NCBI GenBank assembly: GCA_950295325.1
Contig: OX485807.1
Coordinates: forward strand, 9,389,001 to 9,453,000
DNA from: Polytrichum commune
Taxonomy: Eukaryota; Streptophyta; Polytrichopsida; Polytrichales; Polytrichaceae
Direction: 5' to 3'
DNA: 64,000 nt
Part shown: positions 1 through 35,575 of the stretch, in pieces
Numbering within the stretch: the first letter of the stretch is position 1
Layout of the letters: the number at the start of each line of letters is the position of its first letter
Notes under the pieces: model-generated
What the model saw: only the letters and a program-made list of their open reading frames with translations
Told to the model about the DNA's origin: nothing
Databases searched by the model: none
Position numbers and translations under genes: made by a program

Positions 1-2
1 AT

Positions 3-2210
3 CCAGGAAATATCACCAAAATACCTACCCCAGCTGTAATTTCACCATACCTACAAATCATACAAATACAAAATGCACCACTACAACCATGGCTAATCCT
101 ACACATGTATATGCCTTCCCACTTAGAAGACATCTAACACATTACAACAATTCAACAACAAATAACACAACAAATCATGGCACACCCAAACCACTCTTAC
201 ATATTATGTGGTGACTTCAACAGAGACATAGCCCTTATAGGAAGACAAAACGAATCCAACGTAACACCCCCACAAATGGAAGACATAGAATGGCGTACAT
301 TCACAAACACTCTGAATTTAACTTACATCCCAACAAATAGCACATTTACCAGACAAGGTGGACAAAACTATACTCAAACAAGTTTAATTGACGGGTATTA
401 TATCCAAACGCCTAATAACACACTATATACTTCAACCACAAACCACGACTACAACCTAAATTCAGATCACTCACCAGTCACACTACAAATACCACCCAAC
501 ACACTCCTAGCCCGCCCCACACAACCAAAAATAAACAAACCACCAAGGATTCTAAACCCCATCCCACAAGACAACATTGAAAAACTCAAAATAATATTCT
601 TTGAAGAAAACTCCCTCCAAATAAACGAACTCGCCTCAATATTAATTAATGATCACTTAACAGACACCCAATGGCAAACATCTTGCACCAAATTAGACTA
701 CTTAATACAACAAATATCAGAAAAAACCCAAGAAACTTGTAGCGCCCCCCCTCTACCAGCACTAACACACCGCACAGCTCAACAAGGAGGATTCTTGCCA
801 AAAAAACTACAAAAACAATGGAAAAAACACTTATCAACATACCACCTAATAAGAAAAGCAATTCACATTATAAAAACCATACCACTATGGCAAAACCACC
901 CAGTAATAGAAGAACTAAAAAACCACAAACACACTACCATCCCCCCACCACCTCACCCAGATACAAACCCACAAGAATGGATTAAAACAGTAGCAGAACT
1001 AGCCAAAACTGCAAACAAACAAGCACGTAAAATTACAACTAAATACACCCAAGAATGTATAAAAAAAGCCATCGCGAAATACAAACAACTATATGAAAAA
1101 AACCCTAAAAAAATAAATAACAAAGTTTTCAAGAACCAAGACACACCGCCGTTAGACTGCATTAGAGATAGAAACAACAACATATTAACCAGCCCAGAAG
1201 ACATAGCAAACGAAATCCATATTCAACAATCAATTAGTAATAAACCTATAGTCCCAACATGCTATTACCAGCCAGAACACACAAATAATTGCACGTGTGG
1301 AGTTAAACAATACCCATGGCATGACCTTGATGGATTCATAATAGATAAAAGAGGAGATCCACAAATACCACTACATAAATACTTTGACCAAGAAACATAC
1401 GACCTATGCTTAAAACACCTATTCAATAATAAAACACCAGGCCCAGACAAAATCCCAAACTCAATACTAAAGAACATGCCTGATAGCTTCCATAAAATGC
1501 TACTCATTTTTTTCACACAGTGTTATAAGCAAAAAAAAATTCCAGCATCATGGAAAACAAGTTTAACCATACTTTTACACAAAAAAGGGGACCCATCATT
1601 ATTAACAAACCACAAGCCCATAGCACTGGCAAACATAATCTACAAATTATTCACTAGCACACTAACATTAATACTATCAGCATATGGTGAAAAACACCAA
1701 ATACTACACGACAGCCAAGAAGGATTCAGAGCAGAAAGAAACACATCTAGACAATTACAACTACTTATAGCAGCATTCGAAGATGCTAGATTTACAAACC
1801 AAAATATATACCTCTTATACATAGATTTTAAAAATGCATTCGGCTCCCTAGACCACGCTAGACTGTTAGCTGTAATGAAAGACCTTGGATATCCACTAGA
1901 TGTAGTAACACTAATTGGTAATATCTACGCACACTCTACCACCATATTCACCAGCGAACACTTCGGCAAAACAAAACCAATACCCATCCAAAGAGGCATC
2001 ATCCAAGGTGACACTCTAAGCCCATACTTATTTCTAATATTTCTTGAACCACCACTCAGATGGTTACAAAGGGGTAAAAACGGATATACATTTGGCACTT
2101 CGAAATTAACCATTAACTCTGCAGCCTACGCAGACGACCTTGCAGCTATAACAAACAACCCCCAATCACTGCAAATACAATTAAACAAACTAGACAAATT
2201 TTGCGAATAG
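3..2210 (+). pseudogene. LINE endonuclease + reverse transcriptase segment
   Basis: This segment would nick target DNA and copy the element RNA into it (target-primed reverse transcription). The endonuclease begins before the window: in-frame text upstream of the ATG at 177 already matches the fold (PWLILHMYMPSH) but is cut by a TAA at 135-137, so 177 is not a true start. GDFN lies at 210-221, TSLIDGYYI (the usual SRIDYI position) near 385, and NSDHSPV near 460-480. The reverse transcriptase shows motif A (YIDFKNAFGSLDH) near 1816-1860, the RGIIQGDTLSPYLF motif near 1990-2040, and the catalytic AAYADD near 2120-2137. A TAG at 2208 ends the frame, and the same frame resumes immediately after. 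Catalytic residues look intact, so decay is recent. Confidence 0.88.
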
Positions 2211-2216
2211 GCTGGA

Positions 2217-3341
2217 ATGGATTTAGGTGTACAAAAATGTGCCGTCACGGGTTGCCCCAACAAATCCAAACTTAACCCTGAAAAATTCAAAACCCTAATA
2301 CAAAACCACAACATATCTTACAGAAACCAACTTATTCCCGTTCTACACCAAAACGAACCATATGTATACCTAGGAATCCAACTCGTACCCTCACTAAAAT
2401 GGAAACTCCAAACACACATCACCACAAACAAAATAAACCATCAATGCAAGCAGCTAGCCAAATGCCCTGCTACAATTAAACAAAAAATCAATATGGTCGA
2501 CACCGTCATCAGAGCAGGCATAGCATACAGTTTCTACGCAGTCCCATACTCACTTCCGACCATCAAAAAACTAGATAAAAAAATTATAGGAATCCAAAAA
2601 ACAATATGCGGACTACCAAAATGCACAGCAAACGTAATAACCCAACTACCCCAAGAACTCTTTGGCCTTGAAGCCTTTTCATTAAAAAATGCATACTTAC
2701 GATGCATTGGTGAACAACTAAGAAATGCTCTCAATGACCAAGGAAGACTAGGTATAATATACAAAGGACTTATACAACATATATTAGCTAAATATGGCGG
2801 CACAGAAGAAATCCCAAGAATAACACAACTCAATTGCATTAGATCACCGACCATACGTACACTATTTCTCTTAAAAACCGCCGGAGGAATTCACCTTAAA
2901 AGCACGAATGAAAATTTCCAACTACATATGACAGAATTGGAACAAGAATGGCGTACACAAGCCACAAACAAACTCCCACACCTCAACCCCGATCTATCAC
3001 TCAAACTTCTACATAAATTACTAATCCATAACATCTACAAAATACAACACATCACCCTACCGAACGGTACAACCCTTATGACGCCAGACGACTTCAAAAC
3101 GTATCACAAAACACCAACCAAACTAGAAAAAAACGCACTCCAAATAGCCGAACAACTATTCTGCTACCCAAATTGCACACCAAACTGCCCAAATCCATGT
3201 ACAAGACACCCACCCGCCCGTACGCTTAAACCAAGATACATCTCAAACAATCAAAACCTAGTTCCAAGAGCACCAGATAACCCTCCCCAACCACCAATTC
3301 CACAACAACAGCTTCACCCGAACCCACCCCCAACGTCTTAA
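2217..3341 (+). pseudogene. LINE reverse transcriptase C-terminal (thumb) segment
   Basis: Continues the frame of the reverse transcriptase after the single TAG at 2208. It opens with the region that normally follows YADD, including QNEPYVYLGIQL near 2341-2376, which matches the [YF]LG motif of LINE reverse transcriptases. It then has a long helical region without a named domain. Near the end is a cysteine-rich stretch (CYPNCTPNCPNPC, about 3164-3202) followed by a proline-rich tail. The cysteine spacing (C-x3-C-x3-C-x3-C) is not a classical CCHC knuckle. Its role is unknown. Confidence 0.7.
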
Positions 3342-3342
3342 A

Positions 3343-4640
3343 CAACCCCATAAGATTCGCCATCGACGTAATATTAGAACATAAAACAAAAACCATAAAA
3401 GACAAATATAAAATAATAAAGAAATTCAACACATACTTATGTCAATGGACACTCTAAAACAATATTACATACAACAAATGGATGCCACAAAGAGAACTCT
3501 TCCCCCTCAACCATCCAACAGTCATCGCGCACAACATTTCACTACTAACAAAATATTATATAATACTACAACATAAGCAGTATAAAAAAATTCTTAACAC
3601 ACACTTTACCTCTGAACAAAACAGAGATACAAGGTTCATCCCCCCATCTACAAATCTCCCACTCACACAAATATTCATAACCGAATGTAATCCAGAAAAA
3701 GATATTCTTACCAATAAAGATACCATACTAATTCACAATGAGCAAACCCACATATATGAAGATACTGGGAAATACCTTATCACCATACCAACAACAAGAC
3801 TAAAATGGCTATGGCAACAATACAATAAAGCAAGATAGAACTCACAGGGACTAGTACCTCAAACACAAACATTTGAAAAGGAGATAGTATGGCTCTACCA
3901 GAGATACAAAAGTAGAATTCCCAAGAAAACCTCAACAAAAACAACACTACATACCCTACCCACAAACATAATAGACTCTCTCATTACCACCTTCAATATC
4001 TCACACTCCTACTTTTCCTCTCCAGTAACATGCTCAACAAAAATTTCAAAATTCTACTCCCCTTTCGTAAGAGACAAAGTCTTTGGAGCACTAGGAACCG
4101 CCTTCCAATATAAATGGGAAGGCATAGGTTACGCCCACCCACACAACGAAGAAACAGCCCAACAAGCAATCCATTGGGCGAGATTAGCAGCCAAAAACGA
4201 TCCAAAGACCATCACTATAGTAGTAATACCAAATACAAACTGGTACCACGACCCCTCTCCCTATATCGGACCATTTCCAGACACACACATCATCACCTAC
4301 TTCGCTGCAGACACAATTACATACGAAGAACCAACAATCCCCCAAGAAAGACAAATAACTAAAACAAAGCCACTTGCAATACAAATTCTATGTATACACC
4401 ATCGAAATCACAATATTGGCACATCCCATCAAATTAATACATTCAAAATAATACTTGACAACCTACAAATCCCACAATACTACCTCCATAGCGCTCCACC
4501 AACTCCGCACAACACACCAGTCAATAAAAATAAAAAATGGAATAAACTCATATACCCGCCTGTAACCCACCATACCACACTTAACACACCACCACTCCCA
4601 AACTTTGTAACAAACACCACACTCAAATTTTAACCACAAC
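3343..4640 (+). pseudogene. LINE middle region with methyltransferase-like module
   Basis: A second reading frame runs from just after the thumb segment to a TAA at 4630, broken by TAA near 3456 and TAG at 3836. The stretch 3848-4632 is open and has almost no methionine. Between about 4008 and 4350 it encodes SPVTCS, then FYSPFVRDKVFGALGTAF, then YKWEGIGYAHPHNEET, then AIHWARLAAKND and IVVIPNTNWY. The order SP...FG...AF...W.G...(N/H)P...AIHWA...P resembles uncharacterised modules found beside algal reverse transcriptases and recalls N6-adenine methyltransferase-like folds (NPP-type motif, here AHPHNE). The assignment as a methyltransferase is inference; the usual NPPY/NPPF motif is not intact. 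The same module can be read in the truncated copy at 34.7-34.95 kb, so it belongs to the family. Confidence 0.55.
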
Positions 4641-6078
4641 ATAGCTACTATACCGATGGATCCTTCATACCTCCCACAAAAAAGCCAATGGACACTGGAA
4701 AAAAGAAAAAGCTGGATACGGAATATACAACTCAACCAAGTTAGACATGCAAATCTCAAAAAGACTACCAGGGCTACAAACATGCTTTCGAGCAGAACTT
4801 ATGGCCATCCATAAAACACTCAAACTAATATCTACTAAATACCCAAATGAACCTGCACATATATTTACAGATTGTCTCAATTGCCTATACAATTTGAACA
4901 CACACATTAAACACCCCACCACACATAACAACCATGCAGATAAAACAATATTAACAAACATGGTAGAAATATTAAAAACGCGTACCCAACCCACCACATT
5001 TTACAAAGTCAAAGCACACATCAACATTGAAGGAAACGAACAAGCAGATAACCTTGCAAAAATAGGAGCCAGAAAAATATACGAGCATGCACATACCACA
5101 CCATTCTATTTTCAAAAAGACATATGGCCAGGTCCTATGAAAAGACCAGATAAAGGTCCTGTGAGATGCCTACAAACATATCTAACCAAACATGACCTAA
5201 AAAATAACATTGAAATCATGACAAACCAATTCCCTAACATTAGCAAATGGACCACGAACCCAAACATTGATAATGAACTATCCAATGTTTTTTGGCACAA
5301 CCCTAAGATTACAAATGCACAAAAAACTAATATATTAAAATTTCGCACCGGCCAGTATATGGGTAATGCAAGAAAACAACTATTTTTTGGAAGAGAAAGA
5401 TTTCCCTCAATAACATGCTCTATATGTAATTCCGAAGATGCAGACACTTGGCTACACGTATTACTGAAATGCAACCACCAACATATCCATGCCATAAGAG
5501 TTAAAAGACATAACAAAGCAGTATGGGAATTGAGAAAACTAATCCTATCATCACAAAAAGCAAGATGTTATATCCTTATGAACGCAGGAACATTTAATAA
5601 TAATCCCCAAGAAAACACAGTACCCACATGGCTATTAGCATGCTCATGTGAACAACAAAGATGTCACTGTAATGCCAGATTTAAACCAGACATTCTATGT
5701 GTAAAAGGTCACCAGTACAATAATAACCCACCATCCAACCCATCAGACAACCTCACAATACAATTCATTGAATTCACCTATTGCAACGATAGATTCCCAC
5801 AAGAAACAATTACAAATAAAATCCATAAATACCAACCTCTAATAAACGATATTACAGAACTAGGATGGAAGGTCGACCCACTCATAGTCATAACAGCAGG
5901 AGCTAGAGGCACAACCCACACCCCCTCCATTAAACTCCTTGAAACAAACTTCAAAATACCAGAAACCACCATTAAACACACATTCAAGGAAATCAACACC
6001 ATTGCCATACAACATGCCGGATCAATTATCCTACATAAAAGAAAAATAGAAAACAACCAACCCCTGCCCCTTGACTAA
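4641..6078 (+). pseudogene. LINE RNase H, zinc motifs and R2-type restriction-like endonuclease
   Basis: RNase H opens with YYTDGSF at 4646-4666 in one frame; a one-base shift in the A-rich run near 4700-4712 moves it to the next frame. AELMAI (about 4795), IFTDCLNCL (about 4862) and HINIEGNEQAD (about 5017-5049) follow. A CCHC motif (CSICNSEDADTWLHVLLKC) lies at about 5415-5473. A second cysteine pair set (CSCEQQRCHC) lies at about 5641-5670. The C-terminal domain reads KPDILC near 5683-5700, FIEFTYC near 5764-5784, NKIHKYQPL near 5815-5841 and GWKVDPLIVITAGARG after that. The pattern PD...(D/E)xT...KxxKY matches the endonuclease of R2-like elements, and a zinc motif just before it is also R2-like. 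The last codon is followed by TAA at 6076-6078. The nuclease role is inferred from motifs only. Confidence 0.72.
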
Positions 6079-6117
6079 TAAATAACACAAAACTAACAAA
6101 TCAAGAAGAAAAATAAC

Positions 6118-6350
6118 TTTATTTATAATACATGTCTAGCTCAAGGTAAACACTTGTCTCAGGAAGTAGGGATAGGGCTGGTTGGTTCTCAACAAACTTT
6201 CCTGCCTATGATAAGAATCACTAGCAGCACCAAGTCATTATACCATTACAACGCTCAAACGGACACAAAGGGAATCGAACCCGGACCGTTTAAATGGCAG
6301 CACAAACGTTCCAACCAACCTTGGAACCATGACTTGGCTTCCTCAATACA
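6118..6350 (-). repeat. tRNA-derived SINE candidate
   Basis: On the - strand the sequence from about 6345 down to 6270 has tRNA features. A D-arm pairs TTCC with GGAA around a GGTTGG loop. An anticodon-like stem (CGTTT/AAACG) has an oversized loop. There is a perfect polymerase III B box (GGTTCGATTCCC). The T stem is only partly paired and the acceptor does not pair, so it is not a working tRNA gene. A tRNA-unrelated body of about 150 bases follows and ends in an AT-rich tail near 6118, directly against the 3' end of the LINE. This is the usual layout of a SINE, but it could instead be part of the LINE 3' untranslated region read backwards. Confidence 0.4.
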
Positions 6351-7944
6351 AAAACCAATACCTATATACACCCATACGAATAATCAACATCACTAAGGTC
6401 ATTAATACCTATTCTTAGTTACTATAGTGTCTATTCCCGAAAGGGGTGAGTAGTCTTGATACAATGGCCCTCTGCCCTGTGGGCTTTGGCTCATTGTCGA
6501 GACGAACAAACACTTTATTCACGCCGGCCCTTTAAAAAAGGGCAGGTGTTCATATCTATCTTGGGTTCCATTCTTAGATCTAACCTAACCACACACTACT
6601 CAAATGTAGTTGTTCATTAAGATGAATAACCGAATAAGGGCCACACACCTTAACCTATGAGAGATGAATAAAGATGACGCCAAGTGTAGGTTGGTGTGAA
6701 CAAGGGACACTTCACCCTTGATCAAAGTTGCAATCTCAAATGTAAATCCAACGCGAGTTTATAGAACATGGCTGAGATGTACGTGCGATATGGGGTCATT
6801 TGTCTTGTGTACCTAGGTAGTTTTCAATATTGATTATAGTATAGTTGGCCATGTTCTGATTATGTGCATAAAGTCATGTCAAACATGCACATGTCATTCA
6901 AGAATACAATTTAGATCCTCTCCACCCCCTCTCCCCAAACAATTAATATGGCTCATGAAGCTTGAACAAGGCAATCGAAGATGCAGGAGCCATGTATTTG
7001 CAAACATGTGTGAAGGCATATTGTGTGTTGTTTGTATATTGGAACTCGTTTAAGACCACTTCTATGCATATTACAAGGGCTTCATAGGAAAAATTCAAAC
7101 ACCACACTTGAATGTTTGAATGTGATAGCTCTTTTTTTGACACCATGTGACACTTAAGATGGCTCACTTATATGCCATTTTGAGCACTTTTGAACCCCAA
7201 CTTGAGGTCCCCTACAAGACCACTTTATGAACCACAAATTTGAACGTTGACTAAAATTCAATAAGAATACAATCTCCAAGCACAAACTTGCCTCGATTCA
7301 TAAATATTGAACTAGTTCTTCAACTCGTTCATTTAGTGGCTAGATAGGTTTGTGGTACCCACAATAGGCACACAATTCCCAATCAAGCCTTTGGAATTTT
7401 GCATGTCACAACAACCGATACGGTTATTCGAGCCTTGAGTTGAAGTATTCAAATTATTTTTCTAGTATATCTTGAATGTGGATAATTGATGATGATCAAT
7501 TTGTGATTGGAGTTTGTATGCTTTAGGGATGCCAAATGCATATTCCATTTCGCATATAGGGAGTTAATTTCCAAGGATCACATGTGGTTAGTATGACACA
7601 TGTGCATGTTGACTTACTTGGGTGTCATGAGGTGCGTAAAGCATACCCACCCACATTCAAGCAAGCATGTCTTGTGCTTGAAACTTGAAGTATGATTCAT
7701 CCATGTTGGATATATGGAAGTAGTCCAATGGTGCTTGCAAAATGAGACTCATTTCTTTTTAAAATGGAAATAGTGCTAATGTGCTTATGCTCCTTCTTTG
7801 AATATTGAAATCGAGTTTCATGAATGAAAGTGATTGTTCTTTAAGGTTGTGCACCTAAATTATACGCGTAATGACTTTTATACTTTTGATATACCCATGA
7901 TTCAAATATGAGTACTCTATGTGTGCCTAATGTCCAATTACAAC
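6351..7944. other. Intergenic, no gene recognised
   Basis: AT-rich DNA with no reading frame I can support. A short GC-rich island at about 6430-6560 has two small self-complementary stretches (CCCGAAAGGGG and GGCCCTTTAAAAAAGGGC); it may be the remnant of a 3' untranslated region of an element. Confidence 0.5.
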
Positions 7945-24660: not shown

Positions 24661-27600
24661 ATGGCTACCAACGCCATGCTTGCACACGGAGCGCTCACCG
24701 CTTCTCCTGCCTCTGTAAGTCTCACCTTATCCTTAAAACCAAAAATTCGCCACAATGTCGCTCTACTCGCCATTCACAACCTCACCATCCACACATTCTG
24801 GTCCCATTTGCAAATTCATGGTTCGCATTTCGATTCTGCGGGAATTGGAGGAGCTCGTATGCTTTTGCATGAAGAATGTGTCTCTTATCCACATTGATGT
24901 CTCGCACCATCTGGGTTGCAAGTGTGTACCATCGGTTGTATTGTCTTCACCTCGGTTTCAGAGTTCTCTCGTGCTTAATTGTTACTATAATGTTCTGGTA
25001 TGATGTCACAATATTTGGCGCTTGGTCAGGCTTAATTGTTGAGCCGAAGGGCTGTTTGGATGAGGTTATTGTGTGTGTGGTTATGTTTGTCATTTTGCGA
25101 TGATGATGTTTACCTGATGTTTTCTGAACACGTCCTTGAATTGGAATTGCAGTTGAAAAGTAGCACCAGAGTGTCTGGATCCTTGAAGGGATGCAACAAC
25201 CTCCTTGCGAGCCGAGTGCATACTCAGGGTGCAGGGCAAAGGAGGAGAAATGGAAGACTAGTTGTGAAAGCTGCCTCAAAGGAAATTTTCTTTGATCAGA
25301 AGTCACGATCAGCCCTTCAAGCTGGAATTGACAAGTTAGCTGATGTTGTAGGCGTGACATTGGGTCCTCGAGGTAGAATATTCAGGACGCCAGCTCAATG
25401 TCCTTATGGTGTTGCATACATGTGGCTGATGTTACTGTATTCTTCCTTCCATTTCTCTTGTATTTGTCTTCAAGTTGGAGTGTGAACAGAATTATGGTTC
25501 ACCCTAGTTGCTTGTTTAGTCTTACTTTACTCTTGCAAACCTTTTCAGGTATCAACTATTTGTAAGCTCCGTTCCCTCGTAGAAATCTACTGCAGTCTTT
25601 GTAATATAAACCTAGAATCTACATGGAACCGTTATGTCTGTATGACAAGGTGCTGAAGTGGCAACGATTGTAGGGTTTTCACCACATGATTGTGGGTGCA
25701 GGCAGGAATGTGGTGCTTGATGAGTTTGGTGCTCCCAAGGTGATCAATGATGGTGTCACCATTGCCCGAGCTATTGAGCTCCCAGACGCAATGGAGAACG
25801 CAGGAGCAGCACTTATCAGAGAGGTGCAATTGTTATCTGAATTCCTGTATTTGAGTCTTGTTTGAAGAAGTGTTTAGGGGTATTTGATCAATCTTTCTAC
25901 TGTTGCGGGGGGGGGAGGGGGGGGGGGGGGTTGTATTTTTGGAAATCAGGAAAGTTAATAATCTTAATGATTCAGTAGCTCCAATAGAAACTCGTCGTCA
26001 AATACTTCTCAGTAAGTACAGATTTTGAAGCTACTTCTGTAGTTTGATTAGTTATATTCAGCCTTCTTACTGAACACCATGAGTCGATAATCCATCCTTC
26101 CTTGGAGTTTGTGACTTGGATATCTACGTACGAGGTCAGGAATGATGGTGTGCAGCAACAAAATGTATTCACTAAGGATTTTGATAAAATAAGAAGTTCA
26201 CTGTCAAATTTATATTTGTCATTGTAGATGTATTGTGTCTTTTGTTATCTGGTGTTAACTGGTTCCATTCTCACATCCAGGTGGCGAGCAAAACCAATGA
26301 CTCTGCCGGTGATGGTACCACCACTGCCTGTGTACTAGCCAGAGAGTTCATCAAGCTTGGGCTTTTGAATGTCACTTCAGGTGCCAATCCTATCAACATC
26401 AAAAAGGGGATTGACAAGACAGTCACTGCCCTTATTGAAGAGCTGAAGAACCAAGCTCGTGCAGTGAAAGGTCGTGAGGACATTAAAGGTACAGTGCTGA
26501 CTTCCATTTCAGTTGTTACTTTGGCAACATATGTTTATCTTTGCAATGTTTTATGTAGAGGAGGTTGAGTTGAAGCAAAAAAGTTCTAGTGGCTTTATAA
26601 CTTGTAACATGATTCCGGGACCAAATGTTGTATATTCTGCTGTATATTCTTGCAGTGTGCAATTTTTTAATGTGAGTCATTAAAGCATGTATAAGAAATA
26701 AGAGGGTGTAACAATCCTTCAGTGGGTGGTGTTGACACTATGTTAATGGAACTCTGGATTCTGCAGCTGTGGCCTCGATTTCGGCTGGAAATGATGAGTT
26801 TGTGGGAACCATGATTGCTGATGCCATTGACAAGGTCGGGCCTGATGGTGTATTGTCTATTGAATCGTCCTCTTCATTTGAGACAACGGTGGAAGTTGAG
26901 GAGGGTATGGAGGTAAGTAGTTGTTATTGCCATTTTGAAAGTCTGCTTGTGGTCGAGTGGCCAGATGATGCTGTACTAGGTAGATTAAGTAGCAACTGTG
27001 GGTTTTATTATGCTTTCACATCCTGAGCGGGAATTATGTGCTAATAAACTGTTTATGAGCTTCATTCTATCTAAAATTCACGTCTGCATGTGATCTGTGT
27101 GACGCAGGTTGACAGGGGTTACATCTCTCCCCAGTTTGTTACAAACCAAGAGAAACTCCTTGTGGAATTTGAAAATTGCAGGGTATTGGTTACTGATGCC
27201 AAGATTACAGGCATTAAAGAAATCATCCCAGTTTTGGAGAAAACTACTCAGTTGAGTGTGCCCCTTCTTGTTATTGCTGAGGATATTACTGGTGAAGCAC
27301 TAGCAACTCTAGTGGTCAACAAGTTGCGAGGAGTAGTGCAGGTGGCTGCCATCAAAGCCCCTGGATTTGGAGAACGCCGGAAAGCTCTCCTTCAGGATAT
27401 TGCCATCCTTACAGGTCCTCAAGTTGCTCTATCTCTTTATTCTTTCATGATGGTCTTAGTTCTCCTTTCCATGGTTATTCATATTTTAATAGCCCGTCCA
27501 ATGCTTGATCATAGATGCTTATTTTGAATCACAATTGATTTACAGGCTCTGAGTTCTTGGCCAGTGACTTGGGCTTGAAAGTTGAGAATGCCACCATCGA

Positions 27601-28673
27601 CCAGCTAGGAATGGCAAGAAAGGTCACCATTACCAACAACTCCACCACCATCATTGCTGACTATGCTTCAAAGGATGAGATTCAAGCGCGTATTGCCCAG
27701 ATCAAGAAGGAATTGGCTGAAACCGATTCTGTTTATGATACTGAAAAGCTCTCTGAGCGTATTGCAAAACTCTCTGGGGGTGTTGCTGTTATCAAGGTAT
27801 CATACATTACAGAGTGGGGTGTTTTTGGTGCTGCTCCCCTTGATGTCATGTTTTGAGTTCTCTTTCCTTGTTGGAACTGTAAACCAAGATTCTTTGATCC
27901 TATCTCCTGCTGTCTTTATGAAGCTGGACAATTGGATTTACCTCTTCTTTTTAATGTTCAGGTTGGAGCTGCAACAGAGACAGAACTGGAGGACCGGAAG
28001 TTGAGAATAGAGGATGCTAAGAATGCAACGTTTGCTGCCATTGAAGAAGGAATTGTTCCCGGTGGTGGTGCTGCATTAGTTCACTTGTCAGCTTTTGTGC
28101 CAGCGATCAAGGAAACATTGACAGACCCAGAAGAGAGGCTTGGAGCCGACATTGTGCAGAAGGTTAGTCATAATTTTGGGCCTTGTTGTCTACTGGGTTT
28201 TAATGTCTGGTCTCCCAAAACTTGATCGGGGTCATTTGCAGAATTGTGTTATTGAGCATGGAAGTGTTATTGAGCATGTAATGTGTATGTTGCTGGGTAT
28301 CAGAGCCCTGTGGTGATGCATAATGTGTAGCTGTGTTCCATCCTGAAATCTTCGCATATATCTCATCCAATTGTTTTGGATGCAGGCTTTGCTGGCACCA
28401 GCTGCTTTGATTGCAAACAATGCTGGAGTGGAAGGTGAGGTGGTGGTTGAGAAAATTTTGGAAAGAGAGTGGGCGATTGGATACAATGCAATGACAGACA
28501 AATATGAGAATCTTCTAGAGTCGGGTGTGATTGACCCTGCAAAGGTGACGAGATGTGCACTTCAAAATGCATCTTCTGTAGCTGGTATGGTGCTTAGCAC
28601 CCAGGCTATTGTAGTGGAGAAAGTTCAGAAGAAAGCCCCAAGAGTTCCTCAAGTGCCAGGCATGACCATGTGA
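24661..28673 (+). CDS. CPN60B: Chloroplast chaperonin 60 beta subunit (RuBisCO-binding protein beta)
   Basis: Group I chaperonin of the plastid stroma; it folds imported and plastid-made proteins, including the RuBisCO large subunit, in an ATP-driven double ring with the alpha subunit. Nine exons: 24661-24714, 25153-25372, 25702-25823, 26281-26488, 26767-26912, 27108-27414, 27546-27796, 27962-28162 and 28386-28673, all GT-AG, giving 598 residues, the normal family length. A Ser/Arg-rich transit peptide covers about residues 1-58; mature protein likely begins near [24 protein letters not shown] and GDGTTT (142-147) form the ATP site. [15 protein letters not shown] (about 461-475) is the family signature. 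The C-terminus ends GMTM rather than in the longer Gly/Tyr tail usual in flowering plants. The last bases (CCAT then GTGAGT) look like a splice donor, so an alternative 3' exon is possible, although I found none. Confidence 0.96.
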
Positions 28674-32797: not shown

Positions 32798-35575
32798 ATG
32801 AATAAATAAAAACAACATTGGTGCTTTTTATTTGCACTCACGTGAATGGGAGCATGTTCTTTCTTTCCCTAATCCCGTTTTACCAGCTGATAGGGTAGGC
32901 GTACTTCCTACCTTCCGGGAGGTGGGCTCCTTTAAATAATAGTTGCAGGGGTGTGTGGGGGGGGGGGGGGGCGTTTGTGAGTTTGGGTTCATGGGGGTAG
33001 GTTAGTTGGGGCTTGGTTGTTGTCAAACTTTCTTTTATTTAGGACAAGGTATGTGAGGTGTTTAATGGCTATTTGATGTATGTGTGTCATGAGTCTTTTG
33101 ACTTCTTGGCGCGGGGGGGGGGGGGGGGGTATTTTGAGTTTCTCTAGAGCTTCCAATGATTGTTTGTGTATGGCTCCTTGTACCCTTGCTATGACTGTAA
33201 TAAGGGGGTTAACATTCCATCCCGTACTTTTTAACGTTTGAATGAGGGGGTCGAATTTGTTTTTTTTGTTTCCTATGGCAATATTTGAGGATGTATCATG
33301 GTAGTAGGTGAATTCTATGAAATGTATGGTATTTGATGGGTTTGGGGGATGGATGTATGGCTATCTATGGGGGGCCCTAGTATACATAATATGTCGGATC
33401 TTAGCCAGGCCATGCATGTGCATGTGTTGGGGAGGCATGTGCATTGTATTAACCATTATGGGATTGTGATGTCTTGGGGTCGGTTGTGTTAGTTGCTGTC
33501 ATTTACTAGGGTATAGCACCTTGTGTGTTTGTCGGATTGGAGTGTGAGGGCCATTTGGGTACTACTTTGTTGTGTCGGGCTATGCGAAGGCCTTTTTATG
33601 TGTGGGTGGGTGCAAGTGGAGAGTAGGTGTGGCCATGTTTCAATAGTTTGGGCAAAGTGTACAATTGGGGTTGGGATATGTTAGTGGCCAGGAAGATGCT
33701 CTTTCGGTGGCTTCCCATGTATTGGGCATATCGGAATTTGAAGGTTTGTGTAATTTGTGCATCAGGTTTGCTTGAGTTCTTCCAGAAGTGGTTTGAGAGT
33801 TTGTGATTGATTTGCTCGTTAGACACCCATTTGTTTGATGAGTGTGAATTTGGATTTTGTAATTCATAGCTCTTGTTCACGGTGGTATTTATTTATATAT
33901 GTTTGGAGGTTGTGGATCTCTCTATGATGTACGCTTGTTAGGAGTCCGTTGAGCCATTAAGGTTTGGTGTGTGCGATGTGTATGTGGGGTGTGGGGGTTG
34001 GTTTGTTGCGGGTGGTTCCTTCGCTTGCTAGTTGGTTTGCAATTTTGTTGCCCAAGATTCCAATGTGTGCACTAAATTTTCGTATTGTTATGTTGTGTTT
34101 GGTCCATAGAATTTGGTGGCCTATGGCTGAGATAAGTAGTTTGTCGAGGTGGTTGTGTTGGGACGAGGGGTGGTGGTTGTGATTGTTAACGAGATATATT
34201 TTGTTAAGGTTGTCAGTACATATGTAAGTGTTTTGCGATTAATCTTTTGTGGCGGTGAGGGCAATGAGTAGAGCGTAGAGTTCCACATAGTATGTTTGGA
34301 AGTTCAAGGAGTCATTTTGCAATACAGAGGTCATTATTTGGACCATATATTCTTGAGCCAACAATGTTTCCTATGCCATGTTCGTCTGGTGGTTTGAAGG
34401 AACCATATGTGTATATGCATTGTTGTGGGTTGTATTTGGGGGGGGGGGGGGAGAGGATGTTGTATTGTTATGTAAGGTTTTGTGGATTTGACTATGTAAT
34501 CTATGGGTGTGGATTGTGTGGGGTTGGTTTTCACATGGGTGTTGTGAAGTTCCAAGATGTTAGCTGAAGGTTTCGAATTAGTTGTTGGTTTCCAAGAGGG
34601 GTTTTTGGGTTGTGGATGCATATTATTGAAGTGTATTGATTTTTGTGTTGGTGTAGGCATTGGGGCCATTCGGGTGTGGGGTTGTCATTCAAGGTGTTTG
34701 GGGGGATGGCGAGGATTGGGTGCATGGTGGTTGCATATGATTATGCTTGTGGTGGAAGGGTTTTTTTTTTGGTGGCCATTTTTACCCAGTGGATAGCTTC
34801 CATGGTGGATTTATGGTCTTGTGGGTGCGTTATTCCAGTACATATCCATTTCAAGGATTTGGTTAGTCTGGATAAGCCAAAGATTATGCCGCAATTGTGT
34901 GACAAGTTGTATTATGTGAGTTGTGTTGGGCATGTGAGTGGTGAGGAGTAGTACGATTGTGTGATTTGGTAGGCATGTATTAGTATGTTTAATGTAGATG
35001 GGTGGAGTATTTGGTGGTTGTTGTTGGGGTTGCGTTTTTTTAGTTTCTTCTTTGGTAAGACTTTGACGTATCTCTGAGTCAGCCAAAGTATTTTGGTCGC
35101 AAAGCCTTGTAGGGGTGGTTGAGGAAGCTATCCATATGATGTTTATTTTTTATTTTTTTGTATGAATCTCTCCCACAACCATGGGAGTCTTTTGAGTGGG
35201 ATGAAGATGATGTGTGCTCATGTGTGGTCAAACATATGTGCGTCGATCTTTGGATTTGGATAGTGAGGTTGAGATACATGGATGTCTTTATTTGGGTTGC
35301 ATTCTTCGATGTTCAAGGATAAGTGTTGGGGAATTTTATAGGAGGTATGAAGAATCTCTGAACTTTGGATTGGGAGAAATTGATACATGAGTCATAGGTA
35401 GTGCGTGTGTTTCTTATTGTATGTGCCTTGTGTAAATTTATGAAGTAGGAATAGTTTGTGGTCTAATAAGGTGATGTTGTCCGCGTGGAAAAGTTGGGAT
35501 TTTCCTAGCCATTTGGTGGTGATTGGGGTTGTGTTCCATTGGCAAATGTAGGGTTTCTTGATGGCTTGGACCATG
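32798..35575 (-). mobile_element. 5'-truncated copy of the dual-endonuclease LINE
   Basis: Reverse-strand copy matching about 3450-6100 of the LINE at the left edge, in many short frames. Readable parts, 5' to 3' on the - strand, are the pre-module region (DNITLLDHKLFLLHK, about 35.45 kb), the methyltransferase-like module (WICTGITHPQDHKSTMEAIHW, frames shifted, about 34.78-34.95 kb), RNase H with the first Asp replaced (YTYGSF, about 34.41 kb), HIGILGNKIANQLA (about 34.05 kb), the region before the zinc motif (33596-33880), the CxC-type motif with SDILCILG (about 33.4 kb), and the restriction-like endonuclease domain, unbroken for about 50 codons (33.19-33.34 kb). The 3' tail ends near 32798 in ATAAATAAAAAC-like sequence. 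G tracts on the + strand are C tracts of the element's sense strand. Confidence 0.75.
33190..33335 (-). pseudogene. Restriction-like endonuclease domain of the second LINE copy
   Basis: A continuous reading of about 48 codons. It begins TIHFIEFTYYHD, continues with a KKNKFDPLI helix, and ends TGWNVNPLITVIA. It aligns without gaps to FIEFTYC...NKIHKYQPLI...GWKVDPLIVITA in the main LINE. The acidic ExT and the K-x2-K-[YF] are kept in both, which supports them as functional positions. Confidence 0.7.

Follow-up and report, generated by a model that had tools for sequence, protein, structure and literature searches.

Dual-endonuclease LINEs (long interspersed nuclear elements, that is, retrotransposons lacking long terminal repeats, or non-LTR elements) have been described from Chlamydomonas and its relatives (PMC8226300, in the part available) and have been read as a link between elements with a restriction-like endonuclease (REL) and those with an apurinic/apyrimidinic-type endonuclease (APE) (PMC4640811, in the excerpt available). 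The Dualen/RandI elements of green algae combine APE and REL in one element, encode RNase H within the second open reading frame (ORF2), possess a reverse transcriptase (RT) that falls neither in L1 nor in R2 and terminate in short repeats that are not poly(A). In the excerpt of PMC3747384, eight RandI families are entered under green algae, and all eight have non-A repeats. Members of the R2 clade, in contrast, carry a single REL and no APE, whilst plant L1 elements encode an ORF1 and an ORF2 with APE and RT, joined in some cases by RNase H (PMC5348765, excerpt). A review of land-plant elements names, in the portion available, L1 and RTE LINEs only (PMC9033089). Here we describe an element of Dualen-like organisation at the start of a 64,000-nucleotide stretch of contig OX485807.1 (positions 9,389,001 to 9,453,000; hereafter the window), where a first-pass annotation had proposed a LINE with two different endonucleases in a plant-like genome.

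The window copy is a non-LTR retrotransposon carrying two unrelated endonucleases, an APE and an R2-type REL. We consider it very probable that it is a decayed copy of a recently mobile element of ~12 kb with Dualen-like organisation, resident in a plant (probably a streptophyte) and propagated by the mechanism proposed below. Positions 1–6078 constitute one LINE ORF2, broken by stops and changes of frame, in which the motifs first listed are indeed in frame and in place: GDFN at 210–221, SDHSPV from 462, YADD at 2127–2138 and, for the REL, KPDILC from 5683, IEFTY with its glutamate at 5770 and K..KY at 5818–5832. Pfam recognises RVT_1 (E 6.3e-22), Exo_endo_phos_2 (1.5e-6) and RNase_H (4.7e-13) in the window and returns no significant match for the REL part. 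The APE, RT, RNase H, CCHC and REL parts named in the first-pass annotation all stand, but it missed two others, a domain resembling that of PCIF1 and a 2A-like motif upstream of the APE. The complete order of ORF2 is leader, 2A-like motif, APE, RT, PCIF1-like region, RNase H, CCHC and REL.

Sequence profiles alone left the REL undecided, and its identity was settled by the fold. A profile of four sequences found nothing in the PDB at E<=10, and one of nine sequences found R2Bm only (E 2.8), over the CCHC motif and the adjoining RHN stretch. An AlphaFold model (AF2) built from window positions 5077–6075 and eight related sequences has good confidence across most of the REL. Searched against the PDB with Foldseek, it gave six matches at E<=0.001, all of them R2 proteins (best 2.6e-7; all six R2 chains at E<=3.9e-5), and VIA-align returned Z scores of 13.5–15.5 for R2 chains, with viral cap-snatching endonucleases next at 8.4. 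The PD, E and K..KY residues are invariant in all nine aligned sequences. The proposal of an R2-type endonuclease at the C-terminus is thereby borne out. For the APE, the best PDB match of the family profile is exonuclease III (E 0.004), and the motifs of both endonucleases are kept in both of the element families described next.

Further copies were found in the same 408-Mb genome. All 89 scored of 6,436 first-look candidates matched the C-terminal ORF of the window, and all 150 scored of 697 candidates lay over the Pfam cut-off for the PCIF1 family (PF12237); both counts are lower bounds on copy number. Recovery of fuller copies, a check set at the outset, yielded eight with a single frame from APE to REL. 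Five belong to family 1 (L009–L013, with open ORF2 frames of 2,924, 2,919, 2,625, 2,625 and 2,663 codons) and three to a second family (L017–L019, 2,422, 2,305 and 2,123 codons) that is 42–44 % identical to the window in the C-terminal region. The single frame in these eight copies means that APE, RT, PCIF1-like region, RNase H and REL form one protein. The frame of L017 is open, but this copy lacks a short stretch following YADD that L019 retains, and it may not be intact. The presence in this genome of L1-type elements with zf-RVT (141 matches) lends some colour to the idea that the locus is a plant L1 with a chance REL-like C-terminus, or two adjacent elements read as one. Barring misassembly of the open frames, this is extremely improbable, given the unbroken frame in eight copies, the R2 fold of the REL and the separation of the RT from an L1 group to which three L1s of the host genome belong. 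Searches of viral contigs produced 25 pattern matches with the PCIF1-like alignment and 135 with that of the RT, none of which was confirmed as a relative.

Pairwise ratios of non-synonymous to synonymous change (dN/dS; Nei–Gojobori method, own script) were calculated for L009 and L011, which share 90 % amino-acid identity (dS 0.54). Values were 0.129 for the N-terminal part, 0.075 for APE, 0.059 for RT, 0.065 for the N-terminal part of the PCIF1-like region, 0.166 for its core, 0.058 for RNase H and 0.097 for CCHC plus REL. In comparisons with L010, synonymous sites were saturated or undefined, yet the direction was the same. These values show that selection has kept every domain of ORF2, the PCIF1-like region included, and that APE and REL are both under purifying selection. 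One endonuclease could be a relic, with only the other cutting, since most known elements carry a single one (PMC4640811, in part). The low dN/dS for both APE and REL between diverged intact copies, and the retention of their motifs in both families, make a relic very unlikely; the first suggestion of two different endonucleases in one element holds, the REL fold being that of R2. Near-identical pairs also occur: identity reaches 99.66 % over 12.8 kb between L009 and L013 and 99.1 % over 12.0 kb between L011 and L012, with overall dN/dS at ~0.6, a value to be expected for young copies. Relatives of the window copy have been copied recently, but the window copy itself is dead. The APE, RT and RNase H parts that had been thought recently active belong to a copy with five stops and two changes of frame, the young ones being those elsewhere.

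With the R2 clade the family shares the CCHC plus REL C-terminus and its fold, and R2 also gives the highest RT scores in the PDB (128 and 113 bits with the RT family profile, against 77–80 for L1 and 71–75 for R2Bm). An RT tree of 12 rows was built with human L1, three further L1s from the host genome and two R2s. In it the L1 rows separate with support of 99/97, and the dual-endonuclease family forms one group at 100/99, distinct from R2, with R2 on its side and L1 on the other; human L1 and one R2 were flagged by the program as long branches. The RT therefore lies outside L1, in agreement with the first-pass annotation. The scores and the side on which R2 falls in this small tree would also suit descent from an R2-like element that captured its APE independently, the likeness to Dualen being convergence. 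We regard such descent as unlikely: RT identities to R2 and to L1 are nearly equal (0.25–0.28), as expected of a deep intermediate lineage, R2Bm scores below L1, and RandI likewise has an RNase H and non-A repeats at the 3′ end (PMC4640811 and PMC3747384, in the parts available). The family further departs from R2 in having an APE under selection, an RNase H and two ORFs and, judged by eye, the 3′ flanks of the copies viewed differ, so that insertion is not at one ribosomal DNA site, unlike that of R2. From plant L1, with which it shares ORF1 and an ORF2 with APE and RT, it is set apart by the placement of its RT, by its REL and by its tails, which are (TATC)n, (TTTC)n or (CTT)n, with poly(A) in none of the copies read. 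The closest known counterpart in organisation is Dualen/RandI, which combines the same two endonucleases with RNase H, an RT in neither L1 nor R2 and short non-poly(A) repeats, and membership of that group is likely; the host here, in contrast, is probably a streptophyte. In the zf-RVT loci the RT pattern was not found, and three longer stretches were then taken. L055–L057 are conventional plant L1s that share the genome and have long open frames.

Between RT and RNase H, the window copy matches PCIF1_WW (PF12237) with E 1.2e-11 over positions 3854–4234; the reversed and four shuffled versions of the same ORF gave no Pfam match. E values over both families range from 2.9e-12 to 6.7e-6, family 1 lying over the Pfam cut-off and family 2 giving 2.1e-7 (L019, just over it), 8e-7 (L018), 4.7e-6 (L017) and 6.7e-6 (L022). 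In profile searches of the PDB with this region, PCIF1 was the only match at E<=10 (E 0.78; E 0.1). When the core was modelled from a relative, the top four VIA-align rows were PCIF1 (Z 8.4–8.8), followed by RlmJ (7.8) and other adenine methyltransferases, a fold match that agrees with the sequence and is weak by itself. A WW domain was not found in Pfam scans of the element proteins.

PCIF1 is a cap-specific methyltransferase producing N6,2′-O-dimethyladenosine (m6Am). The element domain differs from it in sitting within a retrotransposon polyprotein and in its catalytic motif: in the printed PDB alignment, ANPPF of PCIF1 stands opposite AHPHN. NPPF is absent from all 42 loci whose position was readable by pattern (duplicates L001 and L003 were excluded and the degraded L060 was not matched), the replacements being AHPHN (23 loci), AHPHT (11), AHPPN (3), AFPTD (3), AHPQN (1) and AFPKD (1). 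The domain has lost the catalytic motif, and on this basis we predict that it is a pseudo-methyltransferase. Drosophila PCIF1, which is catalytically dead and still binds the carboxy-terminal domain of the polymerase, offers a precedent for a retained, dead PCIF1-like domain; the cap site of PCIF1 lies between its helical and methyltransferase domains (both PMC9916840, in part). The element domain might bind a cap. Could it instead be catalytically active despite its unusual motif (HPHN, AFPTD), methylating element RNA? In favour of this, the core is under purifying selection (dN/dS 0.166) and AHP is kept in family 1. Set against that, NPPF occurs in none of the 42 loci, the motif of family 2 (AFPTD/AFPKD) is quite different and a single change of phenylalanine to histidine in NPPF could explain the missing m6Am of Drosophila (PMC9479742, in part); activity thus seems distinctly improbable. 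A host PCIF1 was sought with a stretch of human PCIF1, a search that may miss an intron-split gene. Of 62 candidates 58 matched, the best with E 0.003, and two loci were inspected: L059 proved to be a LINE copy, L060 a degraded one, and NPPF is present in neither. A PCIF1-like domain in a LINE was not reported among the literature matches listed. Surveys of N6-adenine methyltransferases may mention such domains in algal elements.

2A motifs, with the consensus D(V/I)ExNPGP, separate nascent chains. The pattern GD(I/V)xxNPGP lies upstream of the APE in 13 of 14 ten-kb loci (L009–L022), the decayed L016 being the exception, and in nine of the 13 it is complete with the usual glutamate (GDIExNPGP type). 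ORF1 (L009 12–776, L017 183–1970) has, by eye, an RRM-like (RNA recognition motif) and coiled-coil look and gave no significant Pfam match; it looks like an RNA-binding, coiled-coil protein.

In both families the last 110–130 bases of the element can be folded into a three-way junction plus a terminal hairpin. Changes on both sides are seen at 12 of 40 pairs among seven sequences, the window copy included, and at 10 of 37 pairs among four sequences of the second family. In four of five measures of covariation none of 500 shuffles reaches the observed values, and slid versions of the structures give far lower covariation. Target duplications were sought in 12 copies with a recognised terminal hairpin (L015, L016 and L021 were excluded, the hairpin having been missed by pattern), giving four first candidates of 12, 12, 14 and 10 bp. 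Those of c11 and c18 are convincing. In c11 (L043 plus L011), TCCATTCTTAAC flanks the 12.0-kb element on both sides (12 bp), the left repeat stopping exactly where similarity to c12 starts; in c18, a 14-bp repeat encloses ~12.3 kb. As a control, the right flank of another copy was used in 132 pairings, of which six gave 10 bp, two 11, one 12 and none 14. The c12 duplication is weaker because the stretch between its repeat and the c11-like start lacks similarity to c11. A tail-end duplication was not found for c09, c10, c13, c14, c17, c19, c22 or the window copy, some of these pieces being without a 5′ end.

These features suggest how the element might work. The 2A-like motif would separate the leader during translation. 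The RT would bind the 3′ RNA structure and reverse-transcribe the RNA from a nicked target site (target-primed reverse transcription), and the two endonucleases would share the work, in the simplest case by cutting one strand each, the priming strand by one enzyme and, ~12–14 bp away, the second strand by the other. The PCIF1-like domain may serve, without methylation, as an RNA-binding module (perhaps for the cap or 5′ end) within the polyprotein. More speculative, and on balance rather doubtful, is the idea of a dead cap or 5′-end reader in the replicase, such that the polyprotein holds both RNA ends and each endonuclease makes one nick; if true, two-end holding of the RNA and paired nicks would explain the making of 12-kb full-length copies.

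Several observations weigh against the reading preferred here. The strand choice of the endonucleases, the activity of the 2A-like motif and the role of the PCIF1-like domain are matters of inference, and Dualen/RandI was compared by its organisation as described rather than sequence by sequence. Dualen, as originally described, carries a cysteine protease, which Pfam did not find in the ORF1 and ORF2 pieces scanned, though a divergent one could be missed. The PCIF1 match falls under the Pfam cut-off in three of four family 2 copies scanned (L017, L018 and L022), the PCIF1-like model is of low confidence (predicted local distance difference test, pLDDT, 44.8) and its best PCIF1 Z is only ~1 above that of RlmJ, a Z near 8 being possible from a common arrangement. 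The usual glutamate is replaced in four of the 13 loci with the 2A-like motif. The 3′ structures were derived from the alignments also used for covariation, and the fifth measure, further pair types, was reached by 99 and 104 of 500 shuffles. Convincing duplications were seen in two of 12 searched copies, and the lengths in c12 (12 bp) and c20 (10 bp) were reached in one and six of the 132 control pairings.

Dual-endonuclease organisation is already known; new among the matches listed are the plant host, the predicted dead PCIF1-like domain and the 2A-like motif. To our knowledge, neither a PCIF1-like pseudo-methyltransferase nor a 2A-like motif is known from Dualen. Through a pseudo-PCIF1 domain that selection maintains in a retrotransposon, mobile elements would have recruited RNA-cap biology by a new route. 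A single chromosome-scale plant genome holds many members, among them several with open frames as well as recent copies, which makes a division of labour between the nucleases testable. That the host is a plant, as first suggested, is upheld by a plastid chaperonin exon in the window (27105–27473, closest in the PDB to plastid RuBisCO-binding protein alpha) and by three LEAFY-type loci in the genome; LEAFY marks streptophytes. Open stretches at 25036–28225 (+) resemble exons of a plastid chaperonin 60 gene.

Table 1. Parts of the LINE copy at the start of the window
Feature	Position	Strand	Basis
APE-type endonuclease, N-terminal part with QETK	upstream of window		
APE-type endonuclease, about the C-terminal two thirds; TAA 135–137 inside	3..519	+	Pfam; end approximate, aligned to intact copies
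Reverse transcriptase, YADD 2127–2138, then TAG 2208–2210	1371..2207	+	Pfam RVT_1; family profile against PDB
PCIF1-like region, N-terminal part, then TAG 3836–3838	3458..3835	+	matches region aligned in intact copies
PCIF1-like core, predicted pseudo-methyltransferase; HPHN (4136–4147) at NPPF position	3839..4630	+	Pfam PF12237; fold of a relative
RNase H	4696..5070	+	Pfam 4.7e-13
CCHC motif, C-x2-C..H-x4-C	5416..5472	+	sequence
CCHC and R2-type REL (PD 5686–5691, E 5770, K..KY 5818–5832)	5392..6075	+	AF2 model, Foldseek, VIA-align
3′ untranslated region (UTR), upstream part	6079..6421	+	resembles other copies by eye
Conserved 3′ RNA structure, three-way junction and terminal hairpin	6422..6550	+	covariation
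Short ATCT-type tail, end approximate	6551..6562	+	tails of other copies

Frames in the window copy are ended by stops at 135–137, 2208–2210, 3339–3341, 3836–3838 and 4631–4633, and the frame changes twice, within 3341–3458 and within 4630–4645. The copy starts upstream of the window: its alignment with c14 extends 3.4 kb beyond the window edge, and a weak one with c11 reaches 3.7 kb; the APE glutamate motif QETK lies at coordinate -171 and the 2A-like motif at -918. Its 3′ limit, first set at 6110, has moved to ~6550 plus a short tail.

Some further observations concern the window and its relatives. The family 1 3′ UTR contains GGAATCGAACC at window 6271–6281 (+), the minus-strand reading of which, GGTTCGATTCC, resembles the B-box of pol III promoters or the T-loop of a tRNA; by eye, stretches like it occur in several other copies, and tRNA (ARAGORN) and Rfam (gathering threshold) scans of the window returned nothing. 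The coding strand of window 1–6000 is strongly A + C rich (GC skew ~ -0.4), and the resulting scarcity of stops may leave even non-coding stretches open. The 5′ end of one family 1 copy contains tandem repeats of ~56 bp (L043 1864–2041). Finally, a second, more decayed copy from a related family, with an IEFTYYHD motif, lies at window 32989–35149 (-), and a fragment of it gave 150 scored matches in the genome.

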